Assembly: GCA_017477435.1 (NCBI GenBank)
Contig: JAFUVV010000011.1
Span: 1 to 44,203 of the forward strand
DNA length: 44,203 nt
Origin: Prevotella sp.
GTDB taxonomy: Bacteria > Bacteroidota > Bacteroidia > Bacteroidales > Bacteroidaceae
Direction: 5' to 3'
The notes under the pieces are model-generated. The model was not told the origin of the DNA. It searched no databases and saw only the letters and a program-made list of their open reading frames with translations. A program made the translations under genes and the position numbers. Shown piece by piece: positions 5,645 through 32,637 of this stretch (within the stretch, counting starts at the first letter, position 1; every line of letters starts with the position of its first letter).

Positions 5645-5730
5645 AGTACACGGCCTTTCTACTCAGAGTATATGGCTTTTGTACTCCCAGTACATGGGCT
5701 TTGTACTCAGATTACATGAACCTTGTACTC
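5645..5730. repeat. Four-unit 22-bp palindromic array, copy A
   Basis: Units are 5645-5664 (2 nt short at its left edge), 5665-5686, 5687-5708 and 5709-5730. Each unit has the form AGTACA, 7-nt loop, TGTACT with a short linker. Unit 3 is the cleanest (loop TGGGCTT); units 1, 2 and 4 carry one or two stem changes. It sits between convergent genes, 14 nt beyond the ampG-like stop. Confidence 0.92.
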
Positions 5731-5752
5731 TAGGCTGTAGATGATAATAAAG

Positions 5753-5789
5753 AGAGAGGGGATGTCGCTTATTGCGGCATCCCCTCTCT
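5753..5789 (-). terminator. Hairpin terminator between convergent ampG-like and aguB genes
   Basis: AGAGAGGGGATG and CATCCCCTCTCT form a long GC-rich stem around a short loop. On the minus strand it lies just after the aguB stop and is followed by CTTTATTATC, so it most likely ends the aguA-aguB transcript. Confidence 0.75.
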
Positions 5790-5807
5790 GTTGTGCGGGT
5801 TGGAGTG

Positions 5808-6701
5808 CTATTCTTCTTCGTCGATGAAGCGTTGCAGTATGCCTTCGTAGGCGTCGATGCGCCTGTCGCGAAGGAACGGCCACCATCGTCTGACGTTCTC
5901 TGAGCGTTGCATGTCGATGTCGACGACGGTGGTGGCTTCGCTGTCGGTGGGTGCCTCGTAGATGAGTTCTCCTTGCGGTCCCGCTACGAAGCTTGTGCCC
6001 CAGAACTGTATTCCCTGTGTCTGTCCCGACGGGTCGGGCTCATGGCCTACGCGGTTTACGGCGACGACGGGCAGGCCGTTTGCCACTGCATGTCCACGTT
6101 GCACCGTCTGCCACGCCATGCGTTGCCGCTCTTGCTCTTCAGGCGAGTCGCTCGACTCGTATCCTATGGCGGTGGGGTAGATAAGCATGTCGGCACCTTT
6201 CAATGCCATCATCCGTGCTGCCTCGGGATACCACTGGTCCCAACATACGAGAACACCGAGCATACCCACGCTGGTTTTTATCGGACTGAAGCCCAAATCG
6301 CCGGGTGTGAAGTAGAACTTCTCGTAGTAGGCAGGGTCGTCAGGTATGTGCATCTTGCGGTATCGTCCAGCGATGGTGCCGTCGCTGTCGATGACGACGG
6401 CGGTGTTGTGATATAGTCCTGCTGTGCGCCGCTCGAAAAGTGACGTCACAATGACCACCCCATGCTCGCGTGCCAGCTGCGAAAAGAATTCGGTAGACGG
6501 CCCGGGGATGGGCTCGGCAAGATTGAAGCCTGCGACGTTCTCTTCCTGACAGAAGTAGAGTGTGTTGTGCAGTTCCTGCAGTACGACGAGCTGTGCGCCC
6601 TGTGCTGCGAGCTGCTGGATTTTCTCTTTCAGACGCTGACGGTTGTCGACGGCGTCGGCGGTGTTATGCTGTTGTATGATTCCGAGTTTCATATTTATCA
6701 T
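5808..6701 (-). CDS. aguB: N-carbamoylputrescine amidase
   Basis: A 297-residue carbon-nitrogen hydrolase (nitrilase superfamily). The catalytic triad is visible: Glu43 in LQELHNTLYF, Lys116 in YRKMHIPDDP and Cys153 in LVCWDQWYPEAAR. The motif spacing and the DDPAYYEKFYFTPGD segment are typical of AguB, which hydrolyses N-carbamoylputrescine to putrescine, CO2 and ammonia in the cytoplasm. The agmatine deiminase gene lies directly upstream on the same strand and supplies its substrate, so the pair completes putrescine synthesis from agmatine. The start could be Met1 (6701) or Met4 (6692); neither has a clear ribosome-binding site. The 82-bp gap to aguA holds two related hairpins. Confidence 0.93.
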   Translation of the reverse strand: MINMKLGIIQQHNTADAVDNRQRLKEKIQQLAAQGAQLVVLQELHNTLYFCQEENVAGFNLAEPIPGPSTEFFSQLAREHGVVIVTSLFERRTAGLYHNTAVVIDSDGTIAGRYRKMHIPDDPAYYEKFYFTPGDLGFSPIKTSVGMLGVLVCWDQWYPEAARMMALKGADMLIYPTAIGYESSDSPEEQERQRMAWQTVQRGHAVANGLPVVAVNRVGHEPDPSGQTQGIQFWGTSFVAGPQGELIYEAPTDSEATTVVDIDMQRSENVRRWWPFLRDRRIDAYEGILQRFIDEEE

Positions 6702-6705
6702 TTTC

Positions 6706-6791
6706 TTTTAGCATGCGGGTGAGACGCCCGCGTTCCCAGTTCTTTTTATTTTAGTATTCGGATGAGATATCCGTGTTCTCAGTTTACATTT
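6706..6791. repeat. Two-copy 43-bp hairpin repeat between aguA and aguB
   Basis: Unit 1 (6706-6748) contains GCGGG TGAGACG CCCGC followed by GTTCCCAGTT. Unit 2 (6749-6791) contains CGGAT GAGAT ATCCG followed by GTTCTCAGTT. Both start with TTTTAG and keep the stem by compensating base changes (GCGGG/CCCGC versus CGGAT/ATCCG). Unit 2 overlaps the aguA stop codon (6784-6786). Confidence 0.75.
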
Positions 6792-7839
6792 TTTCATTTC
6801 CCTCGGGTTTGGCTATCTGCATTGTCATGCAGTGGATGGAGCCGTGCTGGCGTATTATGACGCTGGCGTCGATGCCGATGATCTTGAGGTCGGGGAATGC
6901 TTTTCCGATTGCCTTCATTGCCTCGCTGTCGTGGTCGGGCTGGCCATATGTTGGCACGATTACTGCCTGATTGATGATGAGGAAGTTGGCATAGGTTGCT
7001 GGTAGCCGTTCGCCGTCGTAGTATATCGGCCGTGGCGAGGGTAGGGGTATGAGGCGGTATGGCGTGCCGTCGGCGGTGCGCAGGGCTTTCAGCTCGTCGG
7101 CGAGGGCGAGGAAGTCATCGTACTGCTCGTCGTCGGGTGTGGTGGTGACGTAGAGGAGCGTGTTGTCGGGGGCTAGCCGCACGGTGGTGTCGATGTGTCC
7201 GTCGGTGTCGTCGCCGATGGGATTGCCGTGATGCAGCCACACGATGCGCTCCATGCCGAGCCGGCGTTTCAGTTCGGCTTCTATCTGTGCCTGCGACAGC
7301 GGTTGATTGCGGTGAGGAGCGAGGAGGCACTGGGCGGTGGTGAAGAGCGTGCGTTGGCCGTCAGTCTCTATCGATCCTCCCTCGAGCACGAAGTCGTCGT
7401 CGGTCTCCAGTTGCCCGCTGAATGCCCCTTGGGCGAAGAGAGTGCGGGTGATGAGATTGTCGGCATCGGCGGCAAACTTCTCTCCCCACCCGTTGAAACG
7501 GAAGTCGAGCAGTCGCAGGGAGCCGCAGGCGGTGTCGACGAGCGTAATAGGTCCGTGGTCGCGGGCCCATGTGTCGTCGGTATGGACATGGTAGATGCTC
7601 ACTCTGCCGGCATCGATGTGGCTCAGCTGCCGGGCGACGTCGTCGGGCTGCTGTGCGGCGATGATCACGTTCTCATATTGCGTTATCGCCTCCACCAGCT
7701 CGACACAGGTGGTCTGAATGGCGTCGAGATACGGCTTCCAGTCGGTTCCTGGGTGCGGCCATGTGAGCATCACCGCCTCCTGTGGCTCCCACTCGGCAGG
7801 CATGCGAAACGTTCTACCCTTTGCATCGTGATTGTTCAT
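6784..7839 (-). CDS. aguA: Agmatine deiminase
   Basis: A 351-residue guanidino-modifying enzyme of the peptidylarginine deiminase superfamily. It starts with RMPAEWEPQEAVMLTWPH and contains ARDHGP, EGGSIETDG, GHIDTTVRL and a C-terminal GSIHCMT with the nucleophile Cys337, all hallmarks of agmatine deiminase (agmatine + water to N-carbamoylputrescine + ammonia). aguB follows on the same strand. The promoter (TTTG at 7872-7875, 19 nt, TACTTTTG at 7852-7845, minus strand) leaves only 5 nt between the -7 box and the ATG, so the mRNA may be leaderless or nearly so; Met13 (7803) is an alternative start but would cut the conserved N-terminal edge. Confidence 0.94.
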   Translation of the reverse strand: MNNHDAKGRTFRMPAEWEPQEAVMLTWPHPGTDWKPYLDAIQTTCVELVEAITQYENVIIAAQQPDDVARQLSHIDAGRVSIYHVHTDDTWARDHGPITLVDTACGSLRLLDFRFNGWGEKFAADADNLITRTLFAQGAFSGQLETDDDFVLEGGSIETDGQRTLFTTAQCLLAPHRNQPLSQAQIEAELKRRLGMERIVWLHHGNPIGDDTDGHIDTTVRLAPDNTLLYVTTTPDDEQYDDFLALADELKALRTADGTPYRLIPLPSPRPIYYDGERLPATYANFLIINQAVIVPTYGQPDHDSEAMKAIGKAFPDLKIIGIDASVIIRQHGSIHCMTMQIAKPEGNEKM

Positions 7840-7844
7840 ACGGA

Positions 7845-12811: not shown

Positions 12812-13595
12812 ACAATTCCTTGCCGCAGCCATCCTGCTGCTGGCCCTATCGTGTGGAAAAAACAATAAGACTGCCATCGCCGACGACGAAATAGCATCAG
12901 CGTTCGTCGACGTGAAGACCAAAGGCTGGCTCGAGATACCCGTCGACGACGACGGCGACGAAGGGCAGATACTCCGCAGGAAAGGCTACACCGTCTCCTA
13001 TAACCGCAAGACCAAGCAGCCCAACTGGGTGGCATGGCGACTGACAAAGCAACACACCTACGGCGACAACCGCCGCGACTTCATGCAGTTTGAGGAAGAC
13101 CCCGACGTGGGGCGTCCGCGCGCCACCGACGACGACTACTTCCGCTCAGGCTACGACCGCGGCCACATGTGCCCGTCGGGCGACAACAAGTGGGACGCAG
13201 AAGCACAGCGACAGTCGTTCCTCTTTACGAACATCTGTCCGCAAAACCACTACCTCAACAAAGAAGAGTGGAACGACCTCGAGATACAATGCCGCCGGTG
13301 GGCACGTCGCTACGGGCAAGTCTACATCGCCTGCGGCCCGCTCTTCGAAGGGAACGACATAAAGAAGATCGGAAAGAACAAGGTCCACGTCCCCACAGGA
13401 TTCTTCAAAGTCGTGCTCGCCAATTCAGGGAAAGCCAAAGCCATCGGCTACATCTTCGACAACCGACGCCAGAGCAACCCCCGCGTGTGCACCGTCGATG
13501 AGATAGAGCAACTCACCGGCCTCGACTTCTTCTCGCCCCTCGACGACAAAATAGAGGAAAAAGTAGAAGCCACCGCCGACATAAGCCAGTGGTAG
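12798..13595 (+). CDS. DNA/RNA non-specific endonuclease, lipoprotein
   Basis: The 265-residue protein has a lipoprotein signal (LLALSC, Cys19) and the NUC1 (Serratia nuclease, beta-beta-alpha-metal) active site DRGHMCPSGD with His123. It is followed by FTNICPQNHYLNKEEWNDLE, which holds the metal-binding Asn. The family cuts single- and double-stranded DNA and RNA; the lipoprotein anchor places it outside the cytoplasm, suggesting nutrient scavenging or DNA turnover. ATG at 12798 is chosen because it gives the signal peptide directly; it overlaps the permease gene by 14 bp, so the two are translationally linked. Confidence 0.92.
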   Translation: MKYAKQFLAAAILLLALSCGKNNKTAIADDEIASAFVDVKTKGWLEIPVDDDGDEGQILRRKGYTVSYNRKTKQPNWVAWRLTKQHTYGDNRRDFMQFEEDPDVGRPRATDDDYFRSGYDRGHMCPSGDNKWDAEAQRQSFLFTNICPQNHYLNKEEWNDLEIQCRRWARRYGQVYIACGPLFEGNDIKKIGKNKVHVPTGFFKVVLANSGKAKAIGYIFDNRRQSNPRVCTVDEIEQLTGLDFFSPLDDKIEEKVEATADISQW

Positions 13596-13654
13596 CACTC
13601 CGCCTGCCTGCCCCTGTCATATAGGTTGCCGGCCTTGCCGACATCATCTTATGT

Positions 13655-13742
13655 CAGTACATGGGCTTTACACTGCGAGTACAAAGCCCATGTACTAGCA
13701 GTACAAAAGCCATGTACTCGGAGTACAAAGCCCATGTACTGG
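13655..13742. repeat. Four-unit 22-bp palindromic array, copy B
   Basis: Units lie at 13655-13676, 13677-13698, 13699-13720 and 13721-13742. Unit 1 carries the loop TGGGCTT and the other three carry its reverse complement type (AAGCCCA/AAGCCA). Units 1 and 2 can therefore also pair with each other into one long hairpin. Confidence 0.95.
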
Positions 13743-13981
13743 CGAAGAGAACTCCCCATAGGGAAGGCAGACAGGTGTGACGGGCTGATTTGGCGATGTG
13801 CGTTCCGGTGTATATCAGACTGATATATAGAGGGAAAAAAGCTTCATTTCCCAAAAGAAACTTCTTTCCTCGCTCGCGGTCAGTGGGGGATCTTCATTTT
13901 TATTTACTATCTTTTCCTCTCCTCTGGTGTGAAGAAGTTAGGCTTCACCTCGGAATAAAAAATAAAAACTTCGTTATTTAT

Positions 13982-14012
13982 TTTGTTCTTCGCTCGGTTT
14001 GCACTAACTTTG
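13982..14012 (+). promoter_or_regulatory. Bacteroidetes-type promoter of the Nif3-like gene
   Basis: TTTG (13982-13985), a 19-nt spacer and TAACTTTG (14005-14012) match the consensus well. The expected leader before the GTG at 14037 is about 20 nt, supporting that start. Confidence 0.8.
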
Positions 14013-14036
14013 CAGGCGTAAACTCATTATCAGAGC

Positions 14037-14822
14037 GTGAAAATAAAGGAAGTGATCGACGCCCTTGAACGATTCGCGCCTCTGCCTTTGCAGGAAGACT
14101 TCGATAATGCCGGCCTGCAAGTTGGACTGACAGAGGCGGATATGTCAGGGGCTTTATTGTGTCTCGACGTGACGGAGGCTGTCGTCGACGAGGCCGTTCG
14201 GCTGGGCTGCAACATGATCGTGGCTCACCATCCGTTGATATTCCACCACCTTGCCCGCGTGACCGGCGCTACCTACGTGGAGCGCTGCGTCGTGAAGGCG
14301 ATTCGCGCGGGGGTGACAATCGTGGCGATGCACACGAATCTGGACAACGCCCGCGGAGGGGTGAACTTCAAGATTGCGGAGAAGATGGGGCTCGAGGATG
14401 TCGACTTCTTCGTGCGCAAGGAGGGCATGCCGGCAGAGTGTGGCTCGGGAGTGATGGGGACTTTCAGCAAGCCGATGTGCTCCTGCGAGTTCTTCGAGAT
14501 GCTGAAACTGAGGTTCGGTGCCGAATGCGTGATGGCCAACGAGCCGTTGGAGCGTCATATCCGGCGAGTGGCAATCTGCGGCGGGGCAGGGGCTTTCCTG
14601 CTCGACGATGCCGTGAGAGCGGGGGCCGACGCGTTCGTGACGGGAGAGATGCACTATCACGAGTTCTTCGGGCACGAGCAGCAGATACAGATAGCCGTGA
14701 TAGGGCACTACGAGAGTGAGCAGTTCACGAGCGAAGTGCTGCGCGACATCATCGTGCACGAATTCCCCGAGGCGAAGTGCTTCATTTCTCGCACGTACAC
14801 AAATCCAATCCGCTACGTGTAG
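14037..14822 (+). CDS. Nif3-like dinuclear metal centre protein (YbgI/YqfO family)
   Basis: A 261-residue protein with the metal-binding motifs of the Nif3 family: IVAHHPLIFHH, HTNLDNARGGVNFKIAEKMGL and a C-terminal GHYESEQF. It lacks the PII-like middle insertion of the longer Bacillus YqfO form, like E. coli YbgI. Members form hexamers with a dimetal site; they have been linked to GTP cyclohydrolase-like or stress roles, but the physiological reaction is unsettled. The start is GTG at 14037, positioned about 20 nt after a strong promoter. The zinc-ribbon coiled-coil gene that follows is its usual neighbour. Confidence 0.9.
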   Translation: MKIKEVIDALERFAPLPLQEDFDNAGLQVGLTEADMSGALLCLDVTEAVVDEAVRLGCNMIVAHHPLIFHHLARVTGATYVERCVVKAIRAGVTIVAMHTNLDNARGGVNFKIAEKMGLEDVDFFVRKEGMPAECGSGVMGTFSKPMCSCEFFEMLKLRFGAECVMANEPLERHIRRVAICGGAGAFLLDDAVRAGADAFVTGEMHYHEFFGHEQQIQIAVIGHYESEQFTSEVLRDIIVHEFPEAKCFISRTYTNPIRYV

Positions 14823-14856
14823 AAAACACGGCTGAAGCCCATCCCCACAGAGTCAT

Positions 14857-14897
14857 ATCATAATTATCCATTATAAATTATCCATTATCAATTATAC
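14857..14897. repeat. AT-rich leader repeat, copy 2
   Basis: Overlapping AATTATCCATTAT-type units, nearly identical to those at 11251-11287, sit just before the ATG of the zinc-ribbon gene. Confidence 0.6.
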
Positions 14898-14901
14898 AAC
14901 T

Positions 14902-15741
14902 ATGGCAACTAAGAAAGATCAGACCGAGATGTCGGTAGAAGAGAGACTGAGGACTCTCTATCAGCTTCAGACCACTCTCTCGAGTGTAGACGAGAAGAAG
15001 GCACTGCGCGGTGAGCTCCCCCTTGAGGTACAGGACCTTGAGGATGAGATTGAGGGTCTCACGACACGTATGGACAACATCACAGCCGAGATTGCCGACT
15101 TTGAGAGTGCAATATCGCAGAAGAAAGGCGAGATTGCCCAGGCACAGGCAAGCGTGGAGCGCTACAACGCTCAGCTCAACGACGTGAAGAACAATCGAGA
15201 GTATGACACTCTGACCAAAGAGATTGAGTATCAGAACCTGGAGATAGAACTCTGTCAGAAGAAGATACGCGAGGCTCAGGCACGCGTTGAGGACAAGAAG
15301 GCTGAGAAAGAGACCACGAAGGCAAACATCGACGACAAGCGCATCATCCTCGAAGAGAAGAAGAACGAGCTCGACGAAATCATGCAGGAGACACGCGAAG
15401 AGGAAGACAAGCTCAGAGAGCATGCCAAGGAATTGGAAGCCCTCATCGAGCCGCGCCTGCTGCAGAGCTTCAAGCGCATACGCAAGAGCGTGAGAAACGG
15501 ACTCGGAGTAGTCTACGTGCAGCGCGATGCCTGCGGTGGATGCTTCAACAAGATTCCGCCACAGCGACAGCTTGACATCAAGATGCACAAGAAGATCATC
15601 GTATGCGAATATTGCGGACGCATCATGATCGATCCCGAACTGGCTGGCGTACAGACAGAGGCTCCCGTCGTAGAGGAAAAGCCAAAGCGCAAGCGCACCG
15701 TCCGCAAGACAAAGAAAGCCGAGGAGCCCGAGGCTGAATAA
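14902..15741 (+). CDS. C4-type zinc-ribbon coiled-coil protein (zf-RING_7/DUF164)
   Basis: The 279-residue protein consists of a long coiled coil (about residues 10-195, rich in E, K, Q and A heptads). A C-terminal zinc ribbon follows with CGGCFNKIPPQRQ and CEYCGRI, giving two CxxC pairs. It ends in a lysine/proline-rich tail (KPKRKRTVRKTKK). The family is thought to bind nucleic acid, but its role is not established. It lies 79 nt after the Nif3 gene, its common neighbour. A strong terminator follows at 15769. Confidence 0.88.
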   Translation: MATKKDQTEMSVEERLRTLYQLQTTLSSVDEKKALRGELPLEVQDLEDEIEGLTTRMDNITAEIADFESAISQKKGEIAQAQASVERYNAQLNDVKNNREYDTLTKEIEYQNLEIELCQKKIREAQARVEDKKAEKETTKANIDDKRIILEEKKNELDEIMQETREEEDKLREHAKELEALIEPRLLQSFKRIRKSVRNGLGVVYVQRDACGGCFNKIPPQRQLDIKMHKKIIVCEYCGRIMIDPELAGVQTEAPVVEEKPKRKRTVRKTKKAEEPEAE

Positions 15742-15768
15742 GAAACTGAATAGAACTGCAAAGAGACG

Positions 15769-15850: not shown

Positions 15851-15934
15851 GATGGCTTGTCAATTGTTTGCTCGGGCTATGCTTGATCTTTCGGTTGTGA
15901 CGTTAATTTGTTAATTTGTCAACCTGTTAATCTG

Positions 15935-16750: not shown

Positions 16751-16776
16751 ATCGTCGTCGGTGTTTGTTTTCTATC

Positions 16777-16813: not shown

Positions 16814-16837
16814 TTTGCCTGTTTTGCAGATGGTGGT

Positions 16838-19770: not shown

Positions 19771-19858
19771 CAGTACATGGGCTTTGTACTCGGAGTACAA
19801 GGGCTTTGTACTTGGAGTACATGAATGTTGTACTCGCCGTACATGGGCTTTGTACTGC
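19771..19858. repeat. Four-unit 22-bp palindromic array, copy C
   Basis: Units lie at 19771-19792, 19793-19814, 19815-19836 and 19837-19858. Loops are TGGGCTT, AGGGCTT, TGAATGT and TGGGCTT. It ends 3 nt from the stop of the minus-strand HsdR-N gene. The rest of the 19562-19861 gap holds the DUF4965 promoter. Confidence 0.95.
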
Positions 19859-23180: not shown

Positions 23181-23184
23181 CTGG

Positions 23185-23360: not shown

Positions 23361-23530
23361 GAATTTTTCTCATTTCCGTCTGCTTTTTCATGCTGCAGAC
23401 GTGTAAATTTGCTTTTTGTTGCGTTCTTATTTGTATTGATTCCGATCATTTGATTATATAAAACGCGGTGATTTTGTGTTTTTCTGAACTATTTGTTCGA
23501 GTAAAAGCATGGAGTTACCGTCTTTTTTTG

Positions 23531-23538
23531 TATTTTTG
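23531..23538 (+). promoter_or_regulatory. -7 element of the pyrK-pyrD promoter
   Basis: TATTTTTG at 23531-23538. No good TTTG is seen at -33. The predicted transcript start near 23543 lies just after an in-frame ATG at 23541, which supports the downstream ATG at 23562 as the pyrK start. Confidence 0.55.
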
Positions 23539-23561
23539 CGATGTATATTGTCCGTTATGAC

Positions 23562-24338
23562 ATGAAAAAAACAGTAGAAAACCTGACTGTCGTAGAGAAC
23601 AGGCGGCTCACGGCTCATCATTTTCTTCTCCGTCTGACATCGTCGTCGCCTCTTCCCGAGATGATTCCAGGGCAGTTTGTTGAGGTTTTGGCAGATGATT
23701 CTCCGTCGACATTCCTTCGCCGTCCTATTTCCATCAACTATTTCGATGTCGAGCGCAATGAAATGTGGCTGCTTGTTGCTGCTGTCGGTGATGGTACTCG
23801 TGCTATTGCCGGGAAGCGTGAGGGCGACGTTTTGAACTGTGTCTTTCCTCTTGGAAATGGTTTCACGACGGCATTACCGGCTGATAGTCACGTCCTTCTG
23901 GTGGGCGGTGGCGTGGGTGTTGCTCCGCTATTGTTCCTTGGGCGTCGTCTTTCTAAAGACGGTGTGTCGCCGACGTTTCTACTCGGAGCCCGCACGGAGG
24001 GCGATCTCCTTGAGAGAGAGCTGTTTGAGCAGATTGGCCGAACGTATGTCACTACCGAAGACGGTTCTGCTGGAGAGTGTGGCTTCGTGACAAATCACTC
24101 ACTTCTTGCATGTGAAAAATTCGATATTGTCTTCACTTGTGGCCCTGTCCCGATGATGAAGGCTGTTGCCTCTTACGCGCGTAATAATAATATAAGGTGT
24201 GAGGTTTCGCTTGAAAACATGATGGCCTGTGGACTCGGTGCGTGCCTGTGCTGTGTAGAAAAGACGGTCGATGGTAATCTCTGCGTGTGCAAGGACGGGC
24301 CGGTGTTCGACATAGATAGACTTTTGTGGAATAAATAA
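23562..24338 (+). CDS. pyrK: Dihydroorotate dehydrogenase B, electron transfer subunit
   Basis: The 258-residue protein is an FAD/2Fe-2S oxidoreductase. It has a ferredoxin-reductase FAD region ([10 protein letters not shown]), an NAD-binding segment ([21 protein letters not shown]) and a C-terminal cysteine cluster CGLGACLCC...CVC that binds 2Fe-2S. PyrK passes electrons from PyrD's FMN to NAD+ in the class 1B enzyme of pyrimidine synthesis. It is followed 10 nt later by pyrD, confirming the assignment. Met at 23562 is taken as the start; the ATG at 23541 would lie at or before the transcript start. Confidence 0.95.
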
Positions 24339-24348
24339 CTCGTTGATT

Positions 24349-25257
24349 ATGGCTGATTTAAGTGTTGATATAGCAGGTCTTCGTCTTCCGAATCCTGTGC
24401 TGACAGCTTCTGGCACGTTTGGCTATGGAATTGAATTTTCCGATTTTGTTGACCTCAGTCAGATTGGTGGAATCATTGTCAAGGGTACTACGCTCCACCC
24501 TCGCGAGGGTAACGACTATCCACGTATGGCCGAGACTGCGCAAGGCATGCTCAACTGTGTCGGGCTGCAGAATAAAGGTGTGGATTATTTTTGCAAGCAT
24601 ATTTATCCCGAACTCTCGAAGTATGATGGTCGCTTTATTGTAAATGTGAGTGGTTCTACAGTTGAAGATTATGCCGAGTGTGCTTCTCGTATCGATGCTC
24701 TCGACAATATTCCGGCTATCGAGCTGAATATATCCTGTCCCAATGTCCGTCATGGTGGAATGGCTTTTGGAGTCACTGTGGAAGGTGCTGTCAGTGTGGT
24801 GAGTGCTGTTCGCAAGTGCTACCACAAAACGCTCATTGTGAAGCTGTCGCCCAATGTGACCGACGTTGCTGAGATTGCGCGTGCCGCCGAGGCTTCTGGG
24901 GCCGATGCCGTGTCGCTCATCAATACCATCATGGGTATGTCTATCGATATTGAGCGCCGACGTTCGCGGCTCAGTATAGGCACGGGAGGGCTTAGCGGTC
25001 CTGCCGTCAAACCCGTTGCCGTGCGCATGGTGTGGCAGGTTGCGCGGGCAGTGAAGATTCCTGTCATCGGGCTCGGAGGAATAATGAACGCTGCCGATGC
25101 AATAGAATTTTTCATGGCAGGAGCGTCGGCCATTGAGATCGGCACGGCCAATTTCATCGAGCCTCAGGTGACGATAAAGGTGCGCGACGGTATCGACAAG
25201 TGGCTCGACGACCATGGCTGTCGCTCGCTGAAGGATATAGTTGGAGTGGCGGGATGA
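24349..25257 (+). CDS. pyrD: Dihydroorotate dehydrogenase B, catalytic subunit
   Basis: A 302-residue FMN barrel of class 1[25 protein letters not shown], the active-site segment ELNISCPNV with the base Cys, [10 protein letters not shown] and [30 protein letters not shown] are all typical. It oxidises dihydroorotate to orotate and works with PyrK. The ATG at 24349 fits relatives (MADLSV...); an upstream in-frame TTG at 24343 is not needed. Repeat array D begins 11 nt after the stop. Confidence 0.96.
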
Positions 25258-25268
25258 TGGTCCGGCTT

Positions 25269-25356
25269 CAGTACATGGGCCTTGTACTTCGAGTACAAAG
25301 GCTTTGTACTCCGAGTACATGAACTTTGTATCGCCAGTACAAGGTTCATGTATTTT
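25269..25356. repeat. Four-unit 22-bp palindromic array, copy D
   Basis: Units lie at 25269-25290, 25291-25312, 25313-25334 and 25335-25356. The last unit is the most diverged. It follows the pyrD stop by 11 nt. Confidence 0.93.
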
Positions 25357-25448
25357 CTTCTGTTGTTCTCCAAGGCACAGCATCCGGAATGATGTGAGCC
25401 TGTCAAGGCTGTAAAGATGCGTGTTTATTTGTCTGTATAGGGAAAAAT

Positions 25449-25476
25449 TTGAGGGCTACCGATCGGTAGCCCTCAA
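25449..25476 (-). terminator. Perfect 28-bp palindromic terminator downstream of aroC
   Basis: TTGAGGGCTACCGA is followed directly by its exact reverse complement. On the minus strand AAATTTTTCC follows, so it ends the slyD-aroC side; it could also stop transcripts from pyrD. Confidence 0.8.
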
Positions 25477-25611
25477 CCAACACAAAAACTAAACTAGACT
25501 TAACTAAGCAATGAGGCGTTTTCACAAACCCCTTATTACCGAATGCAAAAGTATATAAAAAATTTTGTTTCTATTCTCTCTTTTACGTTTTTAACACATG
25601 TAAAATGCATT

Positions 25612-26691
25612 TTATTCCATTTTTTTCGACTTATTTAGCAAAAAATGGTCTAAAATGACGATTGCGGCCATCGATTCCACTATAGGCACAGCTCTTGGAA
25701 CCACACACGGGTCGTGACGTCCTTTGCCTTTTATCGTAGTGCTTCTTCCCTCGCGGTCGACGGTCTCCTGTTCTTTCATGATTGTTGCCACGGGTTTGAA
25801 GGCCACCCTGAAATATATGTCCTCGCCGTTGGATATTCCGCCTTGTATTCCTCCGCTGTGATTAGTCCGTGTGCGTATTGTGCCGTTTTCCGAGCAGAAG
25901 ATGTCGTTGCTCTCGCTGCCTTTCCTCGTCGCGGCATCGAATCCTTCGCCATACTCAAACCCTTTTGCCGCGTTTATGCTCATCATTGCAGCAGCCAGAT
26001 CTGCACTGAGTTTTCCGAACTCGGGTTCTCCCAGTCCGGCCGGACAGCCTGTTATTACGGCTGTGACCACTCCTCCCACCGAGTCGCCCTCTTCTCTCAT
26101 CCGAGCTATCAGCAGTTCCATTTCTGCGGCAGTTTTTCCATCCGGGCAACGCACGGGATTGCTCTCTCTCAGGCTGATATTGTAGTCGTTGTAGTCACCC
26201 GAGAGTTTTATGTCGCCTATTTGCGACGTAAAAGCCTGGATATCAATTCCAACGCTTTGTAAAGCAAGCTTTGCGAATGCCCCTGCTACTACTCTGCTTA
26301 TCGTTATTCGCGCCGAGGAGCGCCCCCCGCCTCTATAGTCTCTCACTCCATACTTTTGCTGGTAGGTGAAGTCGGCGTGCGATGGGCGCAGCTTGTCGGC
26401 CATTTCTGTGTAGTCCTGCGAGCGTTGGTTCTCGTTCTTTACGATAAAACCGATTGGCGTGCCAGTGGTTTTACCCTCAAACACTCCGCTGAGCAGTTCC
26501 ACTTTGTCGCTCTCGTTGCGTTGCGTGGTCAGTCGGTTTTGTCCTGGCCGGCGTCGGTTCAGTTCGCTCTGGATGAATTCCATGTCGACCGCGACTCCTG
26601 CAGGCATGCCGTCTATCACACCTCCGATGGCCTCGCCGTGGCTCTCGCCGAAGGTCGTAAGCCTGAATAGTGTTCCGATTGTGTTGCTCAT
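25612..26691 (-). CDS. aroC: Chorismate synthase
   Basis: The 359-residue protein has all the family blocks: [72 protein letters not shown] and the C-terminal [18 protein letters not shown]. It converts EPSP to chorismate with reduced FMN, the last common step of aromatic amino acid synthesis. No other aro gene is in the window. It lies 146 nt after slyD on the same strand. Confidence 0.97.
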
Positions 26692-26837
26692 ATAAATCCG
26701 ATTGTATTAAGTCGTGTGGCTGCAGCCTTTCTGTTCAGGGGCGGATTTGTGCGTCGGGTGTAGGTGTTGCCCCGTTTGACTTCTTTTATGCAGTGCGTAT
26801 TCGGAATTGGTTTTATGCGTCAGATTTCTGTTGCAGG

Positions 26838-27437
26838 TCATTTTCCGTGGCAGCATCCGTGACCTTTTCCTCCGCCTTTCTTGCAGCATCTGCCGTCATT
26901 TTTGTTGCAGTCTTTCCCGTTGTCACCGCATCCTCCGCAGCATCCGTCGTCGTCGATGTCGTTGATAAATTTCTCTATCTCTTCGTTAGTTGCAATTCTG
27001 CTTTCCACCACGGAGCCTATGAAGTTGAGCGTTTTCCCTGCGAGAGGGTGGTTAAAATCGAGTCTTACCTTGTCGTCGCTGATGTTGTCGACCCTTGCCC
27101 TGTACACCTGTCCGTCTTCATCCCGCATTGGTATGATGGCGTCGAGATATATGTTTTTCGAGTCGAACTTGCCGTCGATGCAGAACAGTTCGCGGTCCAG
27201 TTCGAAGATATTGTCTTCGTTGATCATGCCGTATGCCTGTTCCGGTTGCAGCACGAAGTCAAACTTTTCGCCTTTCTCCAGTGGCAGGATGTTTTTTTCA
27301 AACTCGCCGAGAGTCAGTCCGAAGCCACTTATGAACACGAATGGGTTCTCAATGGTTGCCTCTTCGATGGGCATCAGCCGTTCGTCTTCTATGCTGCAGA
27401 GCTTATAGGCCACGGCAATGTACTTGTTTTCTGTCAT
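26838..27437 (-). CDS. slyD: FKBP-type peptidyl-prolyl isomerase, SlyD-like
   Basis: A 199-residue SlyD-like protein. The FKBP part (IAVAYKLCSI...LPLEKGEKFDFVLQPEQAYGMINEDNI) is interrupted by the insert-in-flap domain (FELDRELFCIDGKF...DVRARVDNI-like). It then continues with VRLDFNHPLAGKTLNFIGSV. The C-terminal tail is rich in Cys, His, Gly and Lys (CCGGCGDNG...CC...GHGCCHGK) and should bind nickel, zinc or other metals. Start at 27437 is chosen because the -7 box (27467-27474) leaves a short leader there; in-frame Mets at 27455 and 27518 are less likely. Confidence 0.9.
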   Translation of the reverse strand: MTENKYIAVAYKLCSIEDERLMPIEEATIENPFVFISGFGLTLGEFEKNILPLEKGEKFDFVLQPEQAYGMINEDNIFELDRELFCIDGKFDSKNIYLDAIIPMRDEDGQVYRARVDNISDDKVRLDFNHPLAGKTLNFIGSVVESRIATNEEIEKFINDIDDDGCCGGCGDNGKDCNKNDGRCCKKGGGKGHGCCHGK

Positions 27438-27466
27438 ATTATTGTCTGTTGTCATTGTACTTTGTG

Positions 27467-27474
27467 CAAAAGTA
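27467..27474 (-). promoter_or_regulatory. -7 element of the slyD promoter
   Basis: TACTTTTG on the minus strand at 27474-27467. No clear TTTG is seen 19-20 nt further upstream. Confidence 0.5.
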
Positions 27475-27525
27475 CTAAAAAATACGTCTCGGTTAAATTC
27501 TTTGGCTGTTTTTTTCACAAAAATG

Positions 27526-27555
27526 TTTGTATTTTGCTATTTATCATTATCTTTG
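27526..27555 (+). promoter_or_regulatory. Bacteroidetes-type promoter of the subtilase gene
   Basis: TTTG (27526-27529), an 18-nt spacer and TATCTTTG (27548-27555). Only 5 nt separate the -7 box from the ATG, pointing to a leaderless or almost leaderless mRNA. Confidence 0.7.
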
Positions 27556-27560
27556 CCGCA

Positions 27561-29756
27561 ATGAAACAGTTCAGAGTGCTTCTTGCCGTTCTACTTCTGT
27601 CGTTGTTCCAGCCTTCAGTTTTTGCTGCCGACAGAAAGCTCTCGCCCTATGTGCGTCAGGCTGTCCGTATGTCGTCGCGTGTCCGCTCTGCCAAGTCGGC
27701 TGTGCCTCGTCGCCGGCAAGAGCTCTGTGCCTTCGTGAAGACCGCTTCCGGCGGTGCTGATGTATTCTCCGAATATGCCCTGAAGCCCCTTGCAGAGTTT
27801 GGAGATATATCTATTGTGAGCCTTCCTGTTGCTTTGATTCCCCGTCTTTCGGCCGACGACCGCGTCCTGCGCATCGAGGCCAGCCGTTCGGCCCACGTTC
27901 TTCTCGACACTGTCGGCATCCAGATAAATGCCCTTCCCGCCTATGCGGGCACTGATCTGCCGCAGGCATTCACCGGCGAGGGCGTCGTCATGGGAATCCA
28001 GGATGTGGGGTTCGACCTGACGCATCCCAATTTCTTCTCCTCCTCTGGCGACGAATACCGCATAAAAGCCTTTTGGGATCAGCTGTCAACCGACACCATC
28101 GGCAGCAGTCTCTATGTCGGTGCCGACTATGAGGGCGACTCCGAGCTGCTTACATACGCCCGTTCCCGCGACAACCATCTCATCACTCACGGCACCCACA
28201 CCCTCGGTATTGCAGCGGGCAGCGGTGCAGGCACGCCCTACCGGGGCATTGCTCCCGACGCCGACATATGCTTGGTGAACAACGCAGTGACCACCGACGT
28301 CGTGCTCATCGACAGTCTCGACCTTTATAAATATACGTCGGCAACCGACGCACTCGGATTCAAATATATCTTCGACTATGCCGACCGTGTTGGCAAGCCC
28401 TGTGTGATCTCGTTCAGTGAAGGGTCGCATCAGGATTTCCGCGGCGACGATCAGCTCTATTTTGAGACCCTCTCGCGGCTTGCAGGTCCCGGTCGTATAA
28501 TCGTATCGTCGGCCGGCAACAACGGCTACTACACCACCTATATCGAGAAGCCCGCCGGCGATGCCACAGCCGGCACATTCCTGCGCAACTACGACGAGAA
28601 CTACGTGTTCACCACGCTCCGTTCGTCGGGGCCGTTCACCCTGCGCATCACCTCCTACGGCGACACTCCCGAGGCCTTCTCCATCACCACCGACGAGCTT
28701 TGCCTCCAGCCCGACTCCAACCTTATCGACACCATCACGCTTGCCTCACGCCGTTATCCTGTCGACATCTACTGCTACCGTTCGTGTTATAATCCCGACG
28801 ACATCATCGTGGAGTTCTATGCCGAAGACGAGGGCAAGTTTGCTGCTTCCCAGCCGTTCAGCATCGAGGCTGTCGGTGCAGAGGCGCGAGTGGAGTTTTT
28901 CAACATCTACGGTCGTTTCACCACCAACGCCCGCAATCCTGAGCTCACCGACGGTGAATGCACCCACAGCATCAACTCCCCCTCGGCTTGCGAGGATGTT
29001 ATCTGCGTGGGAAGTACCACCTATCGCACCGGCTTCGTCAACTATCGCGACGAGTATGTCGACCAGAACTGGGACACCGGCGGCCGTCGCGGCCGTTTCT
29101 CTTCCGTCGGTCCCACCCATCAGGGCCTTGTGAAGCCCGACGTGCTTGCCCCCGGGGCAAACGTCATCTCGTCGATGAGCAGCTATTTCATTGAAGCCGC
29201 AACCGATGCAGGCAAGCTCCGCTTCCTTGTCGAGACGATGGAGCGCGGCGGTCGCGTCTACGGATGGGAAGCGCAGTCAGGCACGTCGATGTCGTCGCCG
29301 GCAGTGGGTGGAGCCATCGCCCTGTGGCTACAGGCACGTCCCACTCTCACCCGCGACGAGATCATCGACGTCTTCGCCCACACCTGCCGCCGCACCTCCG
29401 ACACCGACGTCTGGCCCAACAACACCGACGGCTGGGGCGAGATCGACGTCTATCGTGGCCTGCTCTACATCCTTGGCATCGACGCCATCGACGGCATCTC
29501 CCTCTCGCAGCCCGAGAAAGCACGCTTCCGTGTGACGGGCGAAGGGAATCTCGTGATCCTTTCCGACCTTGCCCGCGACAACGATTTCACGTTGTCGGTC
29601 TATTCCGTCGGCGGCCAGAAGCTCCTCACCACCCACGTCGGTCGCGGCCACGACAACCCCGAAGTCAGCCTTGCCAGCCTTCCACGAGGCCTCTACGTGG
29701 TACAGATCGGCAGCAGCGACCCCCGCTTGTCGGGGTCGACCATCATCCGCCGCTGA
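27561..29756 (+). CDS. Secreted S8 (subtilisin-like) serine peptidase
   Basis: The 731-residue protein begins with a signal peptide (MKQFRVLLAVLLLSLFQPSVFA). The catalytic triad is Asp148 (GIQDVGFDLTHP), His210 (THGTHTLGIAAG) and Ser576 (GTSMSSPAVGGAIALWLQ). A long insertion between His and Ser (about 300-480) carries a jelly-roll-like stretch with no recognised name. The C-terminus (FTLSVYSVGGQKLLTT...SLASLPRGLYVVQIGS) resembles a type IX secretion sorting domain, so cell-surface or extracellular delivery is inferred. An in-frame extension upstream of 27561 overlaps the antisense slyD gene and is not coding. Confidence 0.92.
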   Translation: MKQFRVLLAVLLLSLFQPSVFAADRKLSPYVRQAVRMSSRVRSAKSAVPRRRQELCAFVKTASGGADVFSEYALKPLAEFGDISIVSLPVALIPRLSADDRVLRIEASRSAHVLLDTVGIQINALPAYAGTDLPQAFTGEGVVMGIQDVGFDLTHPNFFSSSGDEYRIKAFWDQLSTDTIGSSLYVGADYEGDSELLTYARSRDNHLITHGTHTLGIAAGSGAGTPYRGIAPDADICLVNNAVTTDVVLIDSLDLYKYTSATDALGFKYIFDYADRVGKPCVISFSEGSHQDFRGDDQLYFETLSRLAGPGRIIVSSAGNNGYYTTYIEKPAGDATAGTFLRNYDENYVFTTLRSSGPFTLRITSYGDTPEAFSITTDELCLQPDSNLIDTITLASRRYPVDIYCYRSCYNPDDIIVEFYAEDEGKFAASQPFSIEAVGAEARVEFFNIYGRFTTNARNPELTDGECTHSINSPSACEDVICVGSTTYRTGFVNYRDEYVDQNWDTGGRRGRFSSVGPTHQGLVKPDVLAPGANVISSMSSYFIEAATDAGKLRFLVETMERGGRVYGWEAQSGTSMSSPAVGGAIALWLQARPTLTRDEIIDVFAHTCRRTSDTDVWPNNTDGWGEIDVYRGLLYILGIDAIDGISLSQPEKARFRVTGEGNLVILSDLARDNDFTLSVYSVGGQKLLTTHVGRGHDNPEVSLASLPRGLYVVQIGSSDPRLSGSTIIRR

Positions 29757-29771
29757 ACAGTTTCCCCCTTC

Positions 29772-29976
29772 TTTTAACCCGAATCGGTCATTAGACTTTA
29801 TGATAGAGTTGTACTTGTTTTAGGCAGATTAGCGGTTTTATCTTTTAAGGCGTAGCGGGCTACGTCGATAAGATAAAACCGGTAAGATGACAAAACAAGT
29901 GCAGCTATAGCATGAAGAGAGTCATTTCAAACTATAATATCCCTATCCTCGGTCTAATGACCGATTTGGGTTTAAA
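29772..29976. mobile_element. MITE-like long inverted-repeat element (about 205 bp)
   Basis: The two halves are imperfect reverse complements in three nested blocks. The outer arms are TTAACCCGAATCGGTC at the left and GACCGATTTGGGTTTAAA at the right. The middle arms are the TACTTGTTTT region and the AAAACAAGTGCAG region. The inner arms are GGTTTTATCTT and AAGATAAAACC around a GCGTAGC/CTACG tip. The right half (29897-29972) recurs at 41678-41757 with about one mismatch. No open frame of transposase length is inside. Confidence 0.7.
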
Positions 29977-30063
29977 CGTCAACGATAGCGAAGGACGAAG
30001 AAGAAAGAACGATAACGAAAGGACGAAAGCGTTAGCGAAGCCCTCTTCCGACTCTCTCGCCGG

Positions 30064-30151
30064 CAGTACAAAGCCTTTGTACTCCGAGTACACGAACCTT
30101 GTACTGCCAGTACATGGGCTTTGTACTTCGAGTACATGGGCCTTGTACTCT
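30064..30151. repeat. Four-unit 22-bp palindromic array, copy E
   Basis: Units lie at 30064-30085, 30086-30107, 30108-30129 and 30130-30151. Loops are AAGCCTT, CGAACCT, TGGGCTT and TGGGCCT. It lies between convergent genes. Confidence 0.95.
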
Positions 30152-30368
30152 TGCCGTAGCACCCGGAAGCCGTCGCATGTAAACTGTTGTGACACAATAA
30201 AAAACCCTACTTTTAGGTATTGCATGTTACTGATTTTCTGCTTAATTTTGCATCCAGAACAACAATTAGGTATTTTCCGCCGTCGACAAGAAGATTAGGT
30301 TCATTAAATTTCACATAGAATAGACTTATTCGCAGAAATTAGTATTTCATAATGTTTTTGTATAAAAA

Positions 30369-30394
30369 AAGGGCTGTCCGCGAGGATAGCCCTT
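30369..30394 (-). terminator. Rho-independent terminator of the GH39 gene
   Basis: AAGGGCTATCC and GGACAGCCCTT (minus strand) form an 11-bp stem, followed by TTTTTTTATA-type sequence. It is 53 nt after the GH39 stop. Confidence 0.8.
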
Positions 30395-30446
30395 ACTTTT
30401 TCTTTTCCCGGCGAGTGCTGCCGGGGCTGTCATCCGGTTGTAATCG

Positions 30447-31829
30447 TCACATCTCTATGGCTATGAAAGAGTTTGGCCATAGAGAGACGTCGATTGCTCC
30501 GTCGTTCACGTTGAGCGGTATCTCGGTGTATATGTGCGACTGGTCGGTCAGGTGTCCCACGGCTTTCTCGATCTGTCCTTCTGCGAGTCGCACGCGGTAG
30601 GTCTCCTTAGCGCACTGGTTGTCGTCTTCCGAATATCTGCAGAGGATGAGCATCAGCCGTCCGTCTTTGCCCCGTGCAGCGCTGACGTAGAGATCTTTGT
30701 AGTCCGTCTCTGCTTTCACCTGCTGCCCGTAGTCGAGCAATCGTTTCCATGCATAGAATGCATAGTAGGCCGGCCGTGGCGACAGGTCGTAGAGGTCGAA
30801 GAGCCCGTTGAATCCGGTACCGATGCGTGCGTCGTAATACATGAGTTTGTCCACGGGCTGGTCTTGGCACAGAATCATCGTTGCCAGCGTGAAGGCAGCA
30901 CCTTTTTCGGCGCTGATGGCCTTCAGGGAGTAGACGAAGTCTTTGTTCCATCCGCGCACATAGTTCCACTCGTTGAGTATCGACTCCTTCTCTCCGTATC
31001 CGTGGCGTTCCATGAGCTTTCTTATCCTTGCCGCTTTCTCCGAGATGATGTTTGGCTGTTTAGCATAGTAGTGCCAGGAGAAGAAATCGATGTCCACATT
31101 GTGCTGTTTCATGTATGCGAGGAATCGGTCTGCCCATTGCTCGTTGCTGGCTAATGCTGGGCCGCCAATCTTCAGGTTGGGGAAGCACTTGTTCAGGTGG
31201 TTGGCCGCCACTTCGAAGAACTCAAAGAACTGTTGCTCGGTGCCTCCCCAGCATCGTGGGTTTGTGTTCCATTCCCAGATGTCTAAGTCGGCCTCGTTCC
31301 ATATCTCCCAGTATTCTATCCCGAGTTTGAATCCATCGGCCCATCCCTCGTTGTAGTGGCGTATGATGTGCTCGCAGATGCGGGCCCACTTCTTGAAGTC
31401 TTTTGGGGGATAGATGCCATACTTCTTCTTGTTGTGTTCAATCTTCTGGCCGAGGCGGTAGAACACTTTCGTCCCTGTGCTCATGATATCCGCCAGATAC
31501 TTGTCGGTCAGTACGAAGTCGTAGGATTTTGGGTCGTCGACGTCTTTGTCGAAATCGGGGAAAATGGCAGTGATGTCGACGGTGTGCTCCCCTCCGTAGC
31601 CGGCGTAGAACGACGCGTCGTGAGTCCGTGCATAGGGGAACTGCGCCGCGGCGTATGCCGTGCTGTTGCCCGTCGTCTGGTCGCTGCCTTCAATCTTCGG
31701 GCCGTTGTTCACGCCGTTCATGGGCTTTATGGGTCCGACGACTTGCGATGGCGTCACCACCACGTCGGCATTGATGCAAAGCGAAAACGACAATGCAGCG
31801 GTGATAATAAACGATTTGATTGTTTTCAT
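30447..31829 (-). CDS. Glycoside hydrolase family 39-like enzyme (beta-xylosidase type), secreted
   Basis: The 460-residue protein has a signal peptide (MKTIKSFIITAALSFSLCINA) and a (beta/alpha)8 barrel of clan GH-A. The acid/base Glu179 lies in WEIWNEADLD and the nucleophile Glu287 in ESILNEWNYV, the spacing and sequence context of GH39 (beta-xylosidase, alpha-iduronidase relatives). DFFSWHYY and MYYDARIG further support the family. The likely substrate is a xylose- or uronic-acid-containing polysaccharide, but this is inferred. No SusC/D pair is adjacent. Its promoter region contains a perfect 16-bp inverted repeat. Confidence 0.85.
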   Translation of the reverse strand: MKTIKSFIITAALSFSLCINADVVVTPSQVVGPIKPMNGVNNGPKIEGSDQTTGNSTAYAAAQFPYARTHDASFYAGYGGEHTVDITAIFPDFDKDVDDPKSYDFVLTDKYLADIMSTGTKVFYRLGQKIEHNKKKYGIYPPKDFKKWARICEHIIRHYNEGWADGFKLGIEYWEIWNEADLDIWEWNTNPRCWGGTEQQFFEFFEVAANHLNKCFPNLKIGGPALASNEQWADRFLAYMKQHNVDIDFFSWHYYAKQPNIISEKAARIRKLMERHGYGEKESILNEWNYVRGWNKDFVYSLKAISAEKGAAFTLATMILCQDQPVDKLMYYDARIGTGFNGLFDLYDLSPRPAYYAFYAWKRLLDYGQQVKAETDYKDLYVSAARGKDGRLMLILCRYSEDDNQCAKETYRVRLAEGQIEKAVGHLTDQSHIYTEIPLNVNDGAIDVSLWPNSFIAIEM

Positions 31830-31866
31830 GACGTTATGGTTTTAGATTTATGATTGCGTAAAAAAC

Positions 31867-31903
31867 AACTTTGCACATTGGATTGCCTCCAATGTGCAAA
31901 GTT
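31867..31903 (-). promoter_or_regulatory. Perfect inverted repeat overlapping the GH39 promoter -7 box
   Basis: AACTTTGCACATTGGA (31867-31882) and TCCAATGTGCAAAGTT (31888-31903) are exact reverse complements with a 5-nt spacer. The minus-strand -7 box TAACTTTG (31904-31897) uses one arm, so the transcript would begin inside it and carry a CACATTGGA/TCCAATGTG hairpin at its 5' end. It could be an operator or an mRNA-stabilising stem. Confidence 0.75.
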
Positions 31904-31988
31904 AAAGCATTTGATTTAGAAACGAGAAAAAAATTCCCGGAAAATCGTCGGATGTGGCTAATACCATCCGGTTCGTTTCTTTCTGCTT

Positions 31989-32420
31989 CTATTCGTATCC
32001 CTCCTCCCACGCGTCGTACTGCGGTTTTCCTGCCATTCCGCTTTTCTTGCATGCGCTCTCTATCGTGGTGCGCTCGTCGGCAGTGAGCGGTCGGTCGCCG
32101 CGCTTCAGGGAGAAGTAGTTGGTCCGGCCCAGTGCTTTTTGCAGTTTCCGTGCTATCGGAGCGACGGCTGCGTGGGGCATGTTGTCGTAGATGTGGGTGA
32201 ATCCCCGCGGCTGCAGACGGGCCGTCGGCATGGCCAGATGGGGGCAGGCCTTCCCGCCGGCGCCGGTGAGGGAGGGGCTGATCGTAGTCACGTAGCGCCG
32301 GTCGGGGGAGAGATAGTCCCATGCCATGTGGCGGAAACATTTCTTCTTCATCCTGCATGCACTGTTGGTGCAGAGGGGTTCCTTCTTTGCAAATTCTCTC
32401 AGTAGGTCTTTGTCTTTCAT
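31989..32420 (-). CDS. DUF6078 family protein
   Basis: A 143-residue soluble protein. The N-terminal CTNSACRMKKKCFRH and KACPHLA cysteines suggest a small metal-binding region. It continues GFTHIYDNMPHAAVAPIARKL and LKRGDRPLTADERTTIESACKKSGM, matching DUF6078, a Bacteroidetes family with no known function. Its -7 box TATCTTTG lies at 32487-32480 on the minus strand, leaving about 55 nt of leader. The neighbouring genes give no functional hint. Confidence 0.75.
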   Translation of the reverse strand: MKDKDLLREFAKKEPLCTNSACRMKKKCFRHMAWDYLSPDRRYVTTISPSLTGAGGKACPHLAMPTARLQPRGFTHIYDNMPHAAVAPIARKLQKALGRTNYFSLKRGDRPLTADERTTIESACKKSGMAGKPQYDAWEEGYE

Positions 32421-32479
32421 AATTTATAAGATTAATGTGAAACAATATAGGTGTTATCCCGTTCTGTTCTTTTCGGATG

Positions 32480-32511
32480 CAAAGATAAGGCGAGTTTTCT
32501 GTCGCGGCAAG
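32480..32511 (-). promoter_or_regulatory. Promoter of the DUF6078 gene
   Basis: The minus strand reads CTTG (32511-32508), 20 nt, TATCTTTG (32487-32480). Confidence 0.6.
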
Positions 32512-32549
32512 CGAAGTCGAGTTTCGGTGCTAACCACCACTCTCTGCGC

Positions 32550-32637
32550 CAGTACATGGGCCTTGTACTCCGAGTACATGAACGTCCTACTCGCAGTACA
32601 TGACTCTTGTACTCCGAGTACAAAGCCCATGTACTCT
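32550..32637. repeat. Four-unit 22-bp palindromic array, copy F
   Basis: Units lie at 32550-32571, 32572-32593, 32594-32615 and 32616-32637. Unit 1 (loop TGGGCCT) and unit 4 (loop AAGCCCA) are complementary to each other. This is the only copy between divergent genes (DUF6078 and M48). The rest of the 32421-32791 gap has only the DUF6078 promoter and AT-rich sequence. Confidence 0.94.

Follow-up and report, generated by a model that had tools for sequence, protein, structure and literature searches.

A stretch of 44,203 nucleotides from a Prevotella sp. genome (assembly GCA_017477435.1, contig JAFUVV010000011.1), which is referred to at its full length as the window, carries at six loci a tandem array of four 22-bp palindromic units with the arms AGTACA and TGTACT. 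Arrays with these arms are termed "class A". A seventh array, which has the arms RSTATC and GATASY of a second type termed "class B", was overlooked in the original prediction, a description of the class A loci made from the sequence alone. The arrays of the window, with spans measured from arm to arm, are as follows.

5645..5729, no strand assigned: class A array, 4 x 22 bp, in a convergent gap, 14 nt after a stop codon.
13656..13740, no strand assigned: class A array, 4 x 22 bp, with same-direction genes on either side.
19772..19856, no strand assigned: class A array, 4 x 22 bp, adjoining the stop codon (19862) of a minus-strand gene.
25270..25354, no strand assigned: class A array, 4 x 22 bp, in a convergent gap.
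30065..30149, no strand assigned: class A array, 4 x 22 bp, in a convergent gap.
32551..32635, no strand assigned: class A array, 4 x 22 bp, in a divergent gap between genes at 31989-32420 (minus) and 32792-33694 (plus).
388..494, no strand assigned: class B array, 5 x 22 bp, arms RSTATC / GATASY.

The genes that flank the array at 25270..25354 are presumably pyrD-like and aroC-like. When the window is scanned with the pattern AGTACA-N7-TGTACT, allowing up to 2 mismatches, 25 matches are obtained, of which 24 form six groups of four at 22-bp steps and one is a stray; the mean for 100 shuffles of the window is 0.83, and none of them reaches 25. The six four-unit loci of the original prediction are thus all borne out, and so is their intergenic placement, since all six lie outside the genes called with a codon model (some are overlapped by mechanical open reading frames). 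The claim of three copies no more than 15 nt away from a stop codon also fits the distances (5630 to 5645, 25257 to 25270, and 19856 to the minus-strand stop at 19862). Other details need correction: five of the six quoted starts are one base early, the first unit of the copy at 5645, described as 2 nt short, has its full 22 bp, and the unit formula, which was said to hold for every unit, is exact in 16 of the 24 while the other 8 carry 1-2 mismatches.

The arrays are not confined to the window. The genome assembly comprises 2.32 Mb in 62 contigs and is 77.87% complete; adjacent pairs of units with at most 3 mismatches number 505 in the whole of it, compared to 0 for a reversed control. In the 1,551,772 bases that were read (84 stretches, about two thirds of the genome) there are 117 multi-unit class A arrays, a figure that excludes six flagged single units. 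Four units are present in 115 of these, five in one (L192) and two in one (L120), so that the fixed copy number proposed from the window holds genome-wide. The four-unit count was assigned automatically for 113 arrays and by hand for two, namely L077, which had been called as five units through a chance unit with 4 mismatches, and L193, which had been called as two and whose later units carry an extra base. The pitch is 22 bp in 348 of 349 called intervals, the exception being a chance extension, and one unchained array has a 23-bp step. The predicted density of one copy per 5-7 kb is correct for the window; the average over 785 kb is one class A array per 13.3 kb.

The class A unit is a 19-bp palindrome, made up of a 6-bp arm, an oriented 7-bp centre (the loop) and a second 6-bp arm, and is followed by a 3-bp spacer. 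The arms are conserved at 96-99% per unit, while the centres take 122 distinct forms, the commonest being TGGGCTT (68 of 452) and its complement AAGCCCA (61 of 452); GGC or GCC is present in 332 of the 452. The spacer is variable. The three spacers of one array are often the same triplet on the same strand, with 44 of 234 pairs identical compared to 14.8 expected, while reverse-complement identity among them is rarer than expected (2 compared to 13.2); the centres show no such sameness. The two outer ends of the arrays share a degenerate mirror-image consensus of about 8 bp, YYGGCNGC at one end and GCNGCCRR at the other, and no covariation between the two ends was found. Both orientations are used, with 43 of the 78 arrays in the oriented set flipped.

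The loops carry information about how the arrays arose. Identity between loops at the same position in different arrays is 0.608, compared to 0.581 +- 0.0013 when units are permuted and the arrays re-oriented (the maximum of 60 permutations being 0.585). The possibility that this position specificity is an artefact of orienting the arrays was rejected, because the permuted and re-oriented data failed to reproduce it. Identity between loops within one array is 0.569, compared to a null value of 0.573, in agreement with the prediction that chance tandem expansion was not involved. Since the loops are specific to their position and are no more alike within an array than expected, the arrays seem to descend from an ancestor that already had four units, and not to have grown by local expansion.

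Deviations from the arm consensus are informative about what is recognized in the unit. Among 1872 arm pairs there are 47 deviations on the left, 44 on the right and 1 double deviation, which is compensated, compared to 1.1 doubles expected. Because the deviations are nearly all one-sided, the arms look as though they are read as sequence, and not only as the two strands of a stem.

Near-identical contigs, filed under the assembly RUG12886, make it possible to compare the rates of change of the different parts of the array at sites where it has stayed in place. In the compared stretches these contigs are mostly 96-98% identical to the genome, but identity is 86.6, 88.0 and 95.6% in some pieces and 100% in one; since the RUG12886 assembly holds only 35 adjacent unit pairs, we infer that it is mixed and that no more than a part of it belongs to this species. 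All nine arrays that were compared are shared, and eight have four units in both contigs. The ninth (L035) has three in the other contig, so that the unit number, variation of which between strains had been named as evidence against an actively maintained element, varies in one case of nine. In the eight four-unit orthologues, with gapped flank positions excluded and L035 left out of the site counts, differences are found at 1 of 384 arm sites, 6 of 224 loop sites and 7 of 72 spacer sites (13 of 296 for loops and spacers together), at 3 of 160 flank sites within 10 nt and at 44 of 777 flank sites 11-60 nt away. One of the eight is identical throughout and so adds uninformative sites. The arms differ from loops plus spacers with a Fisher p of 1.5e-4 and from the outer flanks with a p of 3e-7. 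Because they have changed far less than loops, spacers or flanks, the arms look to have been selected in place.

The distribution of the arrays along the chromosome was evaluated with a set of 152 arrays of all arm classes in 1,462,431 bases, which provides 101 distances between neighbours. Only 3 of these are below 2.5 kb, compared to 25.4 expected if arrays are placed at random with one per gap (the lowest of 2000 placements being 14). The commonest distance is 4-5 kb (24 compared to 9.2 expected), and the coefficient of variation is 0.58 compared to 0.85. When the null model is also matched for gap length, by giving gaps weights that follow the observed frequency of arrays in them, 3 of 82 distances are below 2.5 kb compared to 21.1 expected, with a lowest value of 10 in 2000. 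The null model was thus made harsher twice, and the avoidance persisted. None of the 138 array-bearing gaps holds two arrays. The effect is present within class A (1 of 46 distances below 2.5 kb compared to 11.3 expected), from class B to the nearest class A array (1 of 22 compared to 8.8), and from the remaining arrays to A or B (1 of 11 compared to 4.0, P 0.04). A prediction was fixed before 89 kb of fresh sequence was read. The 9 distances there, one of which starts at an already counted array, kept the exclusion, small as the sample is: the shortest is 4,647, five on one contig are 6.0-8.9 kb, and one of 26 kb encloses a single unit. Irrespective of arm class, the arrays keep away from one another over about 2.5-4 kb. 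Because the avoidance extends across arm classes, a role at the level of the chromosome or DNA fits it better than homologous recombination between copies. The claim that the element is actively maintained is supported by this spacing together with the conservation of the arms between close strains.

The other arm classes share the geometry of class A. Class B (RSTATC-N7-GATASY) is represented by 30 arrays of three or more units, of which 15 have five units, 13 six, one four and one seven; by eye, some of their ends also read GGCGGC. Positions 2 and 18 of the class B unit covary as pairs (0.768 compared to 0.577, z 5.8), while pairing between positions 1 and 19 is below that in permuted data (z -3.2). 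A sequence-blind scan of the same genome detects 14 further 22-bp palindromic arrays, and period 22 dominates tandem repeats between genes generally, accounting for 112 of 152 intergenic tandem places.

Among 398 genomes of the same genus, adjacent GTACA-core units with at most 2 mismatches occur in 46, this genome included, with 499 pairs here and from 1 to 116 in the others; counts of 1-2 are unsafe, since 4 genomes show a match in the control. A stricter class A pattern has matches in none of 59 relatives. A sequence-blind scan of stretches from other genomes of the genus at nine periods gives period-22 matches in G010 (three), G026 (three), G397 (two) and G416 (one), and period-21 matches in G026 (two) and G003 (one); the G416 match, one G026 match and one unit of a G397 match are doubtful by eye, and at these nine periods nothing was found in seven other genomes. 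At GTACA-type loci of other genomes, between three and six units are called in most cases, and in UBA2739 one array has 8 and another 12 (8 and 7 under a stricter rule), so that four is the rule for class A in this genome and not for the whole group. The UBA2739 arrays at L028:616 and L041:3298 contain locally repeated units.

With respect to genes, 77 of 78 class A arrays lie outside called genes, and the other overlaps a weak 46-codon call. The 74 with called neighbours on both sides occupy 40 same-direction, 17 convergent and 17 divergent gaps, while the available gaps of 100 bp or more number 220, 69 and 78 respectively; no clear preference of class A for a type of gap was found. For all classes together, the 138 array-bearing gaps comprise 69 same-direction, 31 convergent and 38 divergent, and the gaps with 80 bp or more left comprise 350, 97 and 102. 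Class A arrays approach a stop codon to distances as low as -5, and never approach a start codon to under 30 nt.

There is evidence that the arrays have moved as units. Some pairs of arrays are near-identical in each of their four units, with an identity of up to 0.95 at variable sites, while their flanks are unrelated beyond a few bases. In the oriented set, the mean nearest-neighbour identity is 0.760, compared to 0.747 +- 0.004 when unit blocks are shuffled, and 8 arrays have a neighbour at 0.85 identity or more, compared to 2.2 in shuffled data (maximum 6 of 50); the number with a neighbour at 0.80 or more, 19, falls inside the null distribution (14.4, maximum 23). This indicates some copying of arrays as whole four-unit blocks, as the prediction of a mobilised element implied, and the copies look to have spread in this form. 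No target site duplication was found in a set of 102 arrays, the best of 2142 combinations of end and length having a z of 3.2; spacers as target duplications were ruled out by eye, because the flanks do not match them. The gap that holds the array at 25270, measured between matches to the same pair of genes, is clearly shorter in G009, G012, G014, G017 and G018, equal in G020 and longer in G003 and G004, so the array is likely to be absent from such a gap in some relatives, with no precise empty site shown.

A link to a REP-associated tyrosine transposase (RAYT), where REP denotes a repetitive extragenic palindrome, was among the possibilities raised by the original prediction, and the Y1 family (Y1_Tnp) was the only transposase family searched. 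The genome has four Y1 matches, three of them within about 2 kb of an array, a proportion close to what chance would give with one array in about 9.6 kb. Homologues of the Y1 gene at L083 are present in 26 of 120 genomes of the genus, and outside this genome 1 of 29 Y1 loci lies beside an array, compared to 9 of 130 control windows; stricter thresholds, which missed the known case at L083, give 0 of 30 compared to 6 of 130. A RAYT link is therefore not taken as general. Individual Y1 loci have repeats of several kinds near them. The IS200-type Y1 gene at L083:1468-2100 is followed, 44 nt after its stop codon, by a class B-like five-unit array that is partly a hybrid with class A arms. Near another Y1 gene, at L072:10030-10520, there are CCGCGGG...CCCGCGG palindromes with CTCGAAGAGG repeats downstream, and a class A array lies 680 bp from the gene. 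An MmeI-type restriction-modification open reading frame of 1188 aa at L052:3371-6937 includes, in the same frame, a REP-associated Y1 transposase domain at about residues 603-716; GCGGGC palindromes occur nearby, a class A array lies about 2 kb away, and the near-identical contig L018 lacks this reading frame at the corresponding place.

Several families of dispersed repeats invite comparison, one of them from Porphyromonas gingivalis, which we take to belong to the same order as the array-bearing genome. The element described in that species, BrickBuilt, is a miniature inverted-repeat transposable element (MITE) with intergenic tandem 23-nt repeats, inverted-repeat ends and predicted stem loops, dispersed in 19 copies of 1 to 22.8 repeats with leader and tail segments and IS5-like ends, according to the accessible part of its description (PMC4596501). 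The present arrays are likewise intergenic, tandem, short-unit and dispersed, with symmetric ends, but they nearly always consist of four 22-bp dyad units, are about 100 bp long, number well over 100 copies and have no leader or tail that could be seen. As summarized in the excerpts available, a REP is a high-copy extragenic palindrome of 20-40 bp with a GTAG or CGTC tag at one end (PMC3733652), and REP, BIME and REPIN elements are numerous intergenic palindromes in either orientation and in small groups, for which a part in supercoiling or in binding proteins has been suggested (PMC3733652, PMC12306157). The 19-bp palindromic class A units resemble REPs in abundance and in their position outside genes, but their arms and flank consensus lack GTAG and CGTC, they stand head to tail in a fixed four at 22 bp, and Y1 transposases are not enriched beside them in other genomes; in other species GTAG does occur, within the TTGTAG arms of some arrays. 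PINSR, an intergenic, lineage-specific repeat of Prevotella intermedia with 177 and 184 copies in two strains and about three quarters of its sites common to both, is reported, in the part of the account available, as a 188-bp sequence without terminal inverted repeats (PMC4755523). The array is similarly lineage-specific and intergenic, and its length of about 100 bp differs from that described for PINSR. Compared to MITEs generally, the array has ends that are symmetric but short (about 8 bp) and degenerate. Neither a fixed four-unit array nor mutual spacing is reported in the portions of the BrickBuilt, PINSR and REP/BIME descriptions that could be consulted (PMC4596501, PMC4755523, PMC3733652, PMC12306157), and a literature search, which reached few subscription papers, recognised no earlier description of a four-unit 22-bp array element.

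The reading that we favour, to which we assign about an even chance of being correct, is that the array is a REP-like or MITE-like dispersed non-coding element of about 100 bp that is kept as a phased dyad array for a putative dimeric DNA-binding protein and acts on the chromosome. Each 22-bp unit would be a two-fold site for one dimer, and four dimers, about two helical turns apart, may bind together; the conservation of the arms in place, the strict length and the two-fold symmetry fit such an arrangement. The array could then serve as a loop, topology or nucleoid-protein site, occurring once per several kb, and its role would probably be in chromosome architecture. Founder elements that differed in their arms and had five or six units may have been amplified likewise, and appear to fill the same role. 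Taken together, the evidence suggests that the array is a site used by the cell and not mere junk. A bolder version, which we regard as tentative and rather doubtful, is that the arrays are a chromosome ruler, with interchangeable arms, one geometry of 22-bp pitch and class-specific unit number, and a 2.5-4 kb exclusion, which marks or anchors microdomains and in which lineages exchange the arms along with the protein that binds them but keep the geometry. REP-type repeats have been described for a long time, yet there is no consensus on their role; the present element combines a near-fixed unit number, conservation of the arms in place and avoidance across classes; the last of these makes chromosome structuring by such repeats a testable question.

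Several points weigh against the favoured reading. The predicted 4-5 kb mode failed in the fresh stretches, where 1 of 9 distances falls in that range and 5 of 9 are at 6-7 kb. Of the 40 arrays in same-direction gaps, 28 have the same orientation as the genes (two-sided binomial about 0.02), and this mild bias is not expected from a role at the DNA level alone. The unit number can change, as seen in the ninth orthologue, in the five-unit and two-unit arrays and in the few single units. The gene calls on which the spacing nulls rest were made with a simple home-made codon model, and the 14 "other" arrays are loosely defined, some being weak and at least one class B-like (L068:9960). Mobility with target immunity could also yield the exclusion.

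This last point belongs to the main rival, a purely selfish element of the MITE or REPIN kind, in which a putative transposase copies the block, target immunity separates the copies, and the arms are kept for the transposase. It is the main rival because class A and class B have similar ends, which could be recognised by one enzyme. The near-identical arrays with unrelated flanks, the symmetric ends, the subfamilies with their own unit numbers and the patchy occurrence in the genus all agree with it, as does the proximity of three of four Y1 matches to arrays, although this is close to chance. A resident selfish copy does not, however, need the arm conservation that is observed in orthologues that stayed put; the nine compared arrays are all shared, the exclusion operates between arm classes too, and neither target duplications nor, in other genomes, an enrichment of Y1, the sole family sought, was found. 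We consider a purely selfish origin possible but doubtful. If instead the DNA cruciform or hairpin were itself functional, the arms would need only to pair, which is in keeping with the covariation of class B positions 2 and 18 and with the difference in arms between classes and species. This is improbable, given that class A deviations are one-sided and that pairing of positions 1 and 19 in class B falls below the permuted level, while the symmetry is equally predicted by a dimeric protein site.

A role in RNA, as hairpins in 3' untranslated regions that end transcription or stabilise the messenger, would account for the orientation bias, for the 17 of 74 class A arrays that lie 20 nt or less from a stop codon, and for the folding of the six window arrays, all of which beat their own shuffles (z -3.3 to -11.0). 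In five of the six (not 25270) the minimum-energy fold is a long hairpin that pairs unit 1 with unit 4 and unit 2 with unit 3. This hairpin is not taken as selected, since the loops, in arrays that were not oriented for this comparison, pair less than in permuted arrays, both between units 1 and 4 and within units; covariation for pairing was not found. An intrinsic terminator was also rejected, because the flank consensus GCNGCCRR has no T tract and divergent gaps are used as often as convergent ones. A terminator scan of 13500-33000 lists 41 stems, of which three overlap arrays (25313, 25264 and 19782), and no Rfam structured-RNA family matches the window above its gathering score. An RNA-level role is on these grounds quite unlikely. 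An ordinary minisatellite or an assembly artefact might be feared in a fragmented and incomplete assembly, as tandem arrays can be misassembled, but the nine orthologous arrays recur in the RUG12886 contigs, where eight of them keep the same four units, and the loops within an array are not homogenised, so that this explanation has very little probability.

Some other repeats and structures were also observed. A 66-bp tandem repeat in 2.5 copies lies at 23183-23350, its period being three times the 22-bp pitch. Tandem CCTAGG-type palindromes with a period of about 20 bp, at 34254-34320 and 35006-35078, flank the gene at 34351-35010, whose product we take to be a four-helix-bundle protein, and similar repeats are present at L074:4383 and L107:8017. 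Intergenic gaps often hold further simple tandem repeats (ACGATGACGAA, AAAACTGAAAACTC), for example at L081:2598 and L053:16798. On the minus strand at 25449-25507 there is a terminator-like hairpin of 12 pairs with a T tract, and a stretch that overlaps its end matches two relatives at 97%.

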